A stretch of 64,000 bases of DNA from Pelagibacterales bacterium SAG-MED28 (GTDB lineage: Bacteria; Pseudomonadota; Alphaproteobacteria; Pelagibacterales; Pelagibacteraceae), in NCBI GenBank assembly GCA_014653835.1, contig JACWDY010000001.1, positions 62,001-126,000 of the forward strand. Reading direction: 5' to 3'. Of the stretch, positions 34,164 to 40,883 are shown piece by piece; within the stretch, counting starts at the first letter, position 1; each line of letters begins with the position of its first letter. The notes under the pieces were generated by a model that saw only the letters and a program-made list of their open reading frames with translations, did not search any database and had not been told where the DNA came from. Both the position numbers and the translations under genes were made by a program.

Positions 34164-34427
34164 ATGGGTTATTGCGTCTACATGCTCAAGTCATTGGGTA
34201 AAAAAAAAGTAACTTATGTTGGTTATACAAATAACTTAAAAGAGCGGATTAAAAGACATAATTCAGGCAAGGGGGCTAAGTTCACTAGAGGCAGAAAATG
34301 GACATTAATTTACAAAGAAAATTTCAAATCTAAAAAAGAAGCAATTTCTCGAGAATATTATATAAAGAAAAATAGAGTTTTAAGAAATAGATTAAAAAAT
34401 GAAAATTTCCATTCTTCTACCATATAA
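34164..34427 (+). CDS. GIY-YIG nuclease domain protein (UPF0213/YhbQ type)
   Basis: The 87-residue protein has the GIY-YIG core: CVYMLKSL, TYVGYTNNLKERIKRHNSGKGAKFTRGRKW and LIYKENFKSKKEAISREYYIK with the catalytic Glu. These single-domain proteins are common in bacteria; their cell role is unclear. It lies 12 bases after the aldolase gene, and its 3' end overlaps the glycosyltransferase start by 29 bases. Confidence 0.88.
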   Translation: MGYCVYMLKSLGKKKVTYVGYTNNLKERIKRHNSGKGAKFTRGRKWTLIYKENFKSKKEAISREYYIKKNRVLRNRLKNENFHSSTI

Positions 34428-39045: not shown

Positions 39046-39051
39046 ATTTTA

Positions 39052-39090
39052 ATATTACTATTGATAACCATTAATTATCGTTAGTAATAT
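39052..39090. repeat. Inverted repeat upstream of the tyrosine recombinase (possible core or operator site)
   Basis: Two 16-base arms, 39052-39067 and 39075-39090, match in inverted orientation at 14 of 16 positions and are separated by a 7-base spacer (CCATTAA). The layout of two arms around a 6-8 base centre is that of tyrosine-recombinase crossover sites such as dif or lox. It lies six bases upstream of the recombinase ATG, so an autoregulatory operator is the main alternative. Confidence 0.6.
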
Positions 39091-39132
39091 ATTAAATGAT
39101 TTTAGATGTCAATACATATAATTTGAAATCTC

Positions 39133-39297
39133 ATGATTAAATTTATTTTTCCTATCGCAGTATTTATTGCTGCTGTTTACGGAATTTCTTACTTCTGGAC
39201 TAACTCAAGTTCAAAAGGAAAAAAAATGATAGCTTTAGGGTTAATACTAGCCCTTATAATAGGCATTTCGATTACAATTTACCTAATATTTGACTAA
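39133..39297 (+). CDS. Small two-span membrane protein
   Basis: This 54-codon gene starts MIKFIFPIAVFIAAVYGISYFW, then a short polar loop with SSSKGKK and a second hydrophobic helix ending YLIFD. The stop overlaps the ATG of the alkyltransferase gene (TAATG at 39295-39299). That coupling and the clear membrane pattern argue that it is real. Its function is unknown. Confidence 0.65.
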   Translation: MIKFIFPIAVFIAAVYGISYFWTNSSSKGKKMIALGLILALIIGISITIYLIFD

Positions 39298-39572
39298 TGA
39301 AGCTAATAGGTACTGAATTTCAATTAAAAGTGTGGACTTATTTGAAGAAAATTCCCTTTGGAACCGTTAAAACATACTCTCAGGTGGCAAAAGCCATAGG
39401 AAAACCGCTTGCTGCACGTGCTGTGGCCAATGCTATTGGAAAAAACCCCTATGCACCCAAAATACCTTGCCATAGAGTTGTAAGATCTGACGGATCGCTT
39501 GGAGGCTATTCAGGCAAGGGAGGTGTAAAAATTAAGAGATTTTTGCTAAAAAAAGAGGGTATAAGCCTCTAG
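39297..39572 (+). CDS. Methylated-DNA--protein-cysteine methyltransferase domain protein
   Basis: The 91-residue protein is the DNA-binding/active-site domain of O6-alkylguanine-DNA alkyltransferase. It has FQLKVWTYLKKIPFGTVKTYSQVAKAIG, RAVANAIGKNP, and the alkyl-acceptor C58 in PCHRVV. No N-terminal domain is present, so it is a minimal form. The acceptor Cys is intact, unlike the ATL proteins that carry Trp. It repairs O6-alkylguanine. Translationally coupled to the upstream small membrane protein. Confidence 0.88.
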   Translation: MKLIGTEFQLKVWTYLKKIPFGTVKTYSQVAKAIGKPLAARAVANAIGKNPYAPKIPCHRVVRSDGSLGGYSGKGGVKIKRFLLKKEGISL

Positions 39573-39983: not shown

Positions 39984-40883
39984 TTATTGAAAATATTTAA
40001 GACTTAAAAAAACTACTATTGGAATAGTAATAAACGACATAACTGTTGAAGTTACGATAACACTAGCTACACTATCAACTACCCTTTTTTCAGAATACAT
40101 TGAGCCAACCAAATAAGTTAACACTGCGCTTGGCATACATGATTGAATTAAAAGAACACCAGCAGCAAAACCGTCTAAATTTAGAAATTTAATTAATCCA
40201 AACCCAATTAAAGGTCCAATGATTACTCTAACTGCTCCTAAAATTGATGCATGAGTCCAAGAAACTACCTTTAATCTTGATAAGGCAATACCTAAGGACA
40301 TTAAGACTAAAAATATAGTAGCGTATGTAAGTAAAAAAGTTGTGTTTTCTAAATACCCAGGAACATCCCACTCAAAATATAAAAATATTACTGAAACAAT
40401 TATTCCGTAAATTGGCATATTCTTAATTAGTATTTCAAGTGAAAAACTTTTTTTTGCCAGCAAAACTCCAAGTGTAAAGTGAAGAAGAATAATAACTGAT
40501 GCAATTGCAGAAGCGACCCCTAGCCCGGCTGTTCCGTAAGCGAATAAACAAATAGGTATACCCATATTACCTGTATTAGGTAAAATTAATGGTGGTAATT
40601 CACTAATAAAATCTTTTTTGAGTAAAAGTAGAAATAAAATGCCTACAAGAGAAAAACCTCCAATAATGATTAATGCATAAATAAAGTATTCAGTAAAAAC
40701 ACTTAAAGTTACTCCAGTAGTTGTTATCGTATAAAAAATCATTGCAGGTGTACCTACATTACCTGCAAATGTAGTTATGAAATCTGTACTAATTTCTGGA
40801 TTTTTTCTTCCAAGATAATATCCTACACCAATAACAAAAAAAACAGGGACAATTACATCAATAAGTTTAAGGTAGAGCTCCAT
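39984..40883 (-). CDS. AEC family transporter (auxin efflux carrier-like)
   Basis: Inner-membrane carrier of 299 residues with about ten hydrophobic segments. It starts LIDVIVPVFFVIGVGYYLGRKNPE and has the conserved LILPNTGNMGIPICLFAYG and the C-terminal IQSCMPSAVLTYLVG motif of this family. Members carry malate or other organic anions; the substrate is uncertain. The start overlaps the sbmA-like stop by one base (TAATG on the reverse strand). Confidence 0.85.
   Translation of the reverse strand: MELYLKLIDVIVPVFFVIGVGYYLGRKNPEISTDFITTFAGNVGTPAMIFYTITTTGVTLSVFTEYFIYALIIIGGFSLVGILFLLLLKKDFISELPPLILPNTGNMGIPICLFAYGTAGLGVASAIASVIILLHFTLGVLLAKKSFSLEILIKNMPIYGIIVSVIFLYFEWDVPGYLENTTFLLTYATIFLVLMSLGIALSRLKVVSWTHASILGAVRVIIGPLIGFGLIKFLNLDGFAAGVLLIQSCMPSAVLTYLVGSMYSEKRVVDSVASVIVTSTVMSFITIPIVVFLSLKYFQ

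Follow-up and report, generated by a model that had tools for sequence, protein, structure and literature searches.

The 64,000-nt window from Pelagibacterales bacterium SAG-MED28 carries, on its minus strand, a gene for a tyrosine recombinase with an inverted repeat and a promoter directly ahead of it (Table 1). To compare this locus with its relatives, we kept 80 named loci from a protein search, out of 121 stretches encoding recombinase relatives; the titles of these 80 read Pelagibacter, Pelagibacteraceae, or Pelagibacterales, with one given just as alphaproteobacterium, which identifies the window as SAR11. Two upstream neighbours recur across these loci, an Ogt-type methyltransferase domain protein and a membrane transporter, the latter presumably of the AEC type. 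Downstream of the recombinase lie glycosyltransferase and methyltransferase genes that vary between genomes. A small GIY-YIG nuclease-domain protein is also encoded in the window (34164-34427), its end overlapping the start of a glycosyltransferase gene at 34399.

Table 1. Features of the recombinase locus, in window coordinates
Feature	Position	Strand	Remarks
Tyrosine recombinase, single-copy, 318 aa	38089..39045	-	residues R158, K185, H266, R269, H292, Y301
Putative dif-like recombination site	39052..39090	-	gene-sense reading: ATATTACTAACGATAA-TTAATGG-TTATCAATAGTAATAT
Gene-side arm of the site	39052..39067	-	
Centre of the site, TTAATGG, 7-nt, asymmetric	39068..39074	-	CCATTAA on the plus strand; presumed strand-exchange region
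Promoter-side arm of the site	39075..39090	-	
Candidate -10 box, TATTAC	39084..39089	-	17-nt spacing; within the promoter-side arm
Alternative -10 box, TATATT	39086-39091	-	15-nt spacing
-35 box of the recombinase promoter, TTGACA	39107..39112	-	
Ogt-type methyltransferase domain protein, conserved upstream neighbour	39297..39572	+	upstream of the recombinase in 63/80 named loci
Predicted membrane transporter, conserved upstream neighbour	39984..40883	-	upstream of the recombinase in 74/80 named loci

The recombinase matched the Phage_integrase domain (5.5e-20), and alignment identified the full catalytic set, which was invariant in 30 orthologue rows. A first-pass annotation of the window had described an intact recombinase beside the repeat, in agreement with this complete set of residues. 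An AlphaFold2 model built from the 30-row alignment had a mean pLDDT of 61, a quality too low for searching folds. We found the gene in 150 of 197 Pelagibacteraceae genomes; among the 77 with higher completeness, 69 had it. When 20 genomes were searched for any Phage_integrase domain, 15 gave a match; all 11 single-contig genomes carry the recombinase, and 8 of the 11 have no further Phage_integrase match. One additional Phage_integrase gene each was present in three single-contig genomes (G009, G017, and G063) and in the window's own assembly, where it is a second tyrosine recombinase (G000:C4:280-903, L301) with an open frame of 408 aa on a 9,955-base contig, perhaps a phage integrase.

Across the order, the recombinase was absent from 29 of 149 good genomes, sister-family genomes among them. 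Fifteen Pelagibacteraceae genomes that are at least 90% complete have no recombinase gene; the neighbouring transporter is present in 7 of these and missing in 8. The contig stops short of the expected recombinase position in G070, G279, and G264, and in G084 the match ends at residue 257. Most of the 15 absences can be put down to contig ends or missing neighbours, with G012, G028, and G293 the cases that they do not account for. G012 (99% complete, 20 contigs) gave no Phage_integrase match despite a homologue of the neighbouring transporter, and is a possible case of real loss.

The repeat consists of 16-nt arms, paired at 14 of 16 positions around a 7-nt centre, and is separated from the recombinase ATG (39045) by six bases (39046-39051), so that the geometry given in the first-pass annotation, and its description of the repeat as the architecture of a tyrosine-recombinase site, both hold. 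In this AT-rich window, the bare repeat is not unusual. Counting 16-nt arms with two mismatches at most and spacers of 3-12 nt gave 8 matches in the window, some of them overlapping, and 0-7 matches in each of 30 order-1 shuffles (mean 2.7); the bare repeat is therefore not significant. What makes it notable is its conservation across relatives. Leaving out locus L042, which has a short flank, we measured conservation over the remaining 79 loci (75 distinct rows). Mean conservation was 0.94 over the 39 site positions, 0.74 over the 30 nt flanking the site towards the promoter, and 0.57 over the 20 nt flanking it towards the gene, and the parts of the site were equally conserved (left arm, 0.95; centre, 0.94; right arm, 0.94). 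The 79 loci held 45 distinct 39-mers, and the centre was TTAATGG in 43 loci and TTAATTG in 32. In 75 of the 79, the site ended 0-10 nt ahead of the matched gene start; it ended 2 nt within the gene in two loci, and 57 or 60 nt ahead of it in the other two. Conservation upstream of orthologous recombinases, the lack of which the first-pass annotation had named as a refutation of its reading, was thus checked and found.

The core 17-mer was present in 221 of 297 family genomes and never in more than one copy per genome row, many of these genomes being incomplete, and a reversed control pattern of the core had no match in the 297. Of 20 genomes searched with the longer class-I pattern, 12 had a single occurrence, which the coordinates invariably placed immediately upstream of the recombinase. 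Ten more divergent SAR11 loci retain the core GATAA-TTAATNG-TTATC, and 9 of these 10 have outer arms TTCC/GGAA (class II), the exception being L296 with class-I arms. SAR11 sites thus come in two classes that share the core and centre and carry outer arms ATTACTAAC (L031-L110) or TTCC (L291-L295, L297, and L302-L304). Because the outer arms differ between the classes, changes in the arms may have gone hand in hand with changes in the recombinase.

The site also overlaps the promoter of the recombinase gene. The motif TTGAC precedes the arm motif ATTACTA by exactly 24 nt in 76 of the 80 loci and by 23-25 nt in 3 more, and is absent in one. With this spacing, the -10 box is expected within the arm, and a bound protein should therefore block its own promoter. 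Operator and crossover site are probably the same DNA.

We then examined where the site lies on the chromosome. Stepping through the window in 4-kb intervals, we found GC skew to be almost always positive as far as ~38 kb, and thereafter of mixed sign with negative values predominating. Three complete chromosomes (G026, G078, and G022, two of them from one genus) were each sampled as 40 stretches of 20 kb. In all three the site was at the terminus: the cumulative GC-skew maximum lay 3.8 kb away in G026, 38.9 kb in G078, and 2.5 kb in G022, the chance of a random point lying as near being 0.006, 0.058, and 0.004, respectively. The cumulative-skew minimum lay 47.1-49.9% of the circle from the site, and coarse two-segment skew fits agreed (R2 0.47-0.66). 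Upstream skew exceeded downstream skew in 57 of the 59 named loci with enough flank, though these loci are non-independent because the upstream gene order is conserved (63 and 74 of 80 loci). A search for KOPS-like motifs returned just A-rich octamers, which may reflect base skew.

To define how this recombinase relates to XerC and XerD, we ran the NCBIfam XerD model at a threshold of 1e-10 over 147 genomes of the order, 53 from the sister family and 94 from Pelagibacteraceae. A match was found in 50 of the 53 sister-family genomes, 38 of which had two or more, with scores in two bands of ~306-326 and 244-258 bits. The top score, 325.8, falls just under the curated cut-off of 329.6, which 4 of 14 control genomes and none of the sister-family genomes passed. 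In Pelagibacteraceae, 85 of 94 genomes gave a match, the best being 87 bits and coming from the present recombinase, and a few had a second weak match; no match at XerC/XerD level was seen among the 94. The recombinase itself scored 74.4 bits against the XerD model and 70.2 against the XerC model, below the cut-offs of 329.6 and 335.15, and 44.6 bits against the XerS model, for which the NCBIfam cut-off is 267. When the recombinase profile was run over 247 genomes of the order, all matches listed fell in Pelagibacteraceae; class-wide, 16 of 289 genomes matched it at 1e-30, 13 of them scattered outside that family. FtsK_gamma was present in 20 of 20 genomes. The recombinase thus appears to take the place of XerC/XerD, which the sister family has apparently kept.

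A single terminus site with an asymmetric centre, a tyrosine recombinase, FtsK-gamma, and the lack of XerCD together fit chromosome dimer resolution. We consider it very probable that SAR11 (Pelagibacteraceae) resolves chromosome dimers by a dif-like system with a single recombinase, and that the repeat is where this recombinase, the product of the adjacent gene, carries out crossover. Two recombinase protomers would bind each site, one per arm, at the inner ends GATAA/TTATC. Where sister chromosomes had fused into a dimer, FtsK would bring two sites together at the septum, Y301 would cut at either end of the asymmetric 7-nt centre, and a two-step strand exchange would yield two monomers. Bound recombinase would probably repress its own synthesis, since the site overlaps the -10 region of its gene, and the protein would be a member of a plasmid-type family standing in for XerC/XerD.

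Single-recombinase systems are known, namely XerS, XerH, and archaeal XerA (as described in PMC5357621) and XerL (as described in PMC9765430). Like XerS/difSL of streptococci and lactococci and XerH/difH of Helicobacter and Campylobacter, SAR11 has one recombinase and one inverted-repeat site at the terminus, with the gene adjacent (according to accounts in PMC5357621 and PMC2731167). It differs from both in that its site overlaps the promoter of the recombinase gene, and its protein, at 318 aa, is smaller than the sizes given for XerS (~356 aa) and XerH (~354-362 aa) in PMC5357621; XerH matched the SAR11 profile at an E value of 3.2e-5, more weakly than Cre or XerD. XerCD/dif of most proteobacteria shares with SAR11 a short-centred inverted repeat at the GC-skew switch and the presence of FtsK-gamma, but uses two recombinases rather than one, and of these two systems it is that of SAR11 that has the site beside the gene. 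By its description in PMC9765430, XerL/dif of Legionellales is likewise a lineage-specific single-recombinase system from a group earlier said to be without dif/Xer, though the same source places L. pneumophila dif and xerL >400 kb apart. Cre/loxP of phages P1 and P7 is also similar, with one recombinase and a two-arm site, and Cre is the nearest solved structure by sequence. Identity to Cre is ~25%, however, and position 292 is H in SAR11 and W in Cre, while the layout of loxP is 13-8-13 as opposed to 16-7-16 in SAR11.

The closest relatives that we found outside SAR11 are plasmid-borne and 45% identical at best. These are site-specific integrases on plasmids of Alicyclobacillus, Paenibacillus, Sporosarcina, and Protochlamydia, alike over nearly the full length (37-45% identity) and with identical catalytic residues in the three compared. 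We surveyed sites in 10 of the first 15 relatives listed (37-45% identical), using stretches of ~3.7-4 kb. The strict pattern GATAA-N5-9-TTATC occurred in 7 of the 10; with the weak site of L254 set aside, we count 6, with CGATAA/TGATAA-N6/7-TTATC sites near the gene. Sites were absent or weak in the other 4, L259 having none and L261 and L262 relaxed sites only. In a Protochlamydia plasmid the arms pair at 16/16 positions around a 7-nt centre, and an Alicyclobacillus plasmid has ATATTAGTATCGATAA-N7-TTATCGCTAGTAATAC, which closely resembles the SAR11 site. When whole plasmids were scanned, 8 of 10 contained the N6-8 pattern, several with extra copies, and the reversed control matched in one. 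Unlike in SAR11, where the gene is chromosomal, these relatives reside on plasmids and are annotated in function just as integrases; their centres differ, and two of the sites lie ~0.8-0.9 kb upstream, ahead of an operon. Against the SAR11 profile, plasmid relatives scored 229-326 bits, sister-family Xer proteins 32-43, and Cre 42. In a tree of 51 rows (L273, L286, and L299 having been dropped from 54 before building), a fully supported and very long branch separated the sister-family Xer proteins from the rest; the tree gives no rooted order for the SAR11 and plasmid-type proteins, and Cre formed a long branch (4.47) of unsure place.

We also looked for the site in phages. In IMG/VR, the class-I pattern with the host centre occurred on 3 contigs, class-I arms with any 7-nt centre on 30 contigs including those 3, and the class-II site on 26. 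Among these 56 site-bearing contigs, some of them partial, no recombinase relative was found at 1e-5 in the stretches examined, and a search of IMG/VR for close relatives of the recombinase found none. A pelagiphage-type large terminase was encoded on 22 of the 26 class-II and 15 of the 30 class-I contigs, some contigs being near-copies of each other; the L283 terminase and its counterpart in phage HTVC106P share 85% identity. Sites adjoin the large-terminase gene, for example at L281:4148-4180, L282:13658-13690, and L283:1779-1811, and also on contigs within L305-L357. In 28 of the 56 contigs (17 of 30 class-I and 11 of 26 class-II), a half-site of the other class lay at most 60 bp away, the background in 1120 random windows of the same contigs being 156 with a class-I half and 76 with a class-II half. 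Centres on class-II contigs were TTAATCG (16), TTAATTG (9), and TTAATAG (1). No TTAATCG appeared among the listed host matches; most class-II phage sites therefore depart from those of the hosts at one central base; beyond the three noted above, class-I phage centres were mostly unlike that of the host.

Against annotated phages, the 39-nt site matched 51 records, mostly in short matches with E values of ~1-10, the best being HTVC100P (9e-5) and HTVC035P (1e-3). In the terminase regions of nine cultured pelagiphages, HTVC100P and HTVC035P had a recognisable class-I site with other centres and HTVC106P a degenerate class-I site; Lederberg, HTVC024P, and Skadi-4 had sites with other arms only, and HTVC010P, HTVC204P, and HTVC034P had no site at threshold. 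We found no phage integrated at the site, and none of the 297 family genome rows had two cores. The terL gene was detected in 7 of 347 genomes, lying ~180 kb from the site in G123.

These data bear on the alternatives to dimer resolution. The first-pass annotation had named an autorepressor operator as its main alternative, and such a role is probably real, with the TTGAC -35 motif in place in 76 of 80 loci; it is insufficient alone, because the conserved asymmetric centre, the terminus position, and the phage copies remain unaccounted for. That the recombinase only represses its own gene here, with the true crossover site elsewhere, we regard as improbable. Overlap with the promoter is what such a reading would expect, but the asymmetric 7-nt centre is conserved as well as the arms, no second core copy was seen in the 297 family genomes, the site sits at the skew switch, and it also occurs on phage contigs that lack the gene. 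An operator role is likely true in addition to crossover, not instead of it. Similarly improbable is that the site is what is left of a resolution module from a plasmid or phage, one that came to lie near the terminus and now serves a different end, for instance the resolution of mobile elements or phage genomes. Plasmid-borne nearest relatives and the sites on pelagiphage-like contigs are consistent with such an origin, but it is dimer resolution that predicts the skew-switch position, the single core, FtsK-gamma, and a distribution complementary to that of XerCD. Most improbable is a switch, by DNA inversion or cassette insertion, that would work on the adjacent glycan genes, which differ among genomes downstream of the recombinase, since a switch needs at least two sites per genome and no genome row has a second core, the gene and site occur family-wide, and the upstream neighbours are conserved at most loci. 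The first-pass annotation had raised a switch, a cassette insertion site, or a resolution site for the accessory block; the resolution site is supported, but the link to an accessory block falls away, as the glycan genes are just variable downstream neighbours beside two that are kept in 63 and 74 of 80 loci.

Dimer resolution at this site also bears on how SAR11 has been placed in earlier surveys. Carnoy and Roten (2009), in the text of PMC2731167 that concerns it, reported P. ubique to be without dif/Xer and held it up as a sign that streamlining can drop dif/Xer, stating that there was no evidence of loxP/Cre-like substitutes in dif/Xer-deficient proteobacteria. The excerpted text of a dif prediction survey (PMC3025954) makes no mention of Pelagibacter, and we found no report of a SAR11 dif in the open-access literature, judged by titles and abstract beginnings. 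A substitute of the general loxP/Cre-like kind appears to be present across Pelagibacteraceae, with a sister family that is XerCD-like. If the dimer-resolution reading is correct, it would mark the terminus of SAR11 chromosomes with a defined landmark, supply a short site usable for genetic tools, and illustrate how a plasmid resolvase can become chromosomal, in cells that rank among the ocean's most abundant.

For the phage copies, we can postulate a wider scenario, which we favour somewhat over its negation. SAR11 would have swapped XerCD for a plasmid-type single recombinase with its site inside its own promoter, and HTVC010P-type pelagiphages would have copied this site, in many cases with the two host classes side by side next to their packaging genes, to borrow the host dimer resolvase either for integration at the terminus or for circularising or resolving their own genomes in the manner of P1 loxP. 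In P1, loxP lies near the packaging site and helps circularisation. Were this so, self-repression would tie recombinase supply to occupancy of the site, and pelagiphages without such an integrase would have a testable route to the use of their hosts. Finally, we also note that the window's assembly contains a partial HTVC010P-type large-terminase gene on a separate contig (G000:C6:1-978, L379), which perhaps comes from an infecting or integrated phage.
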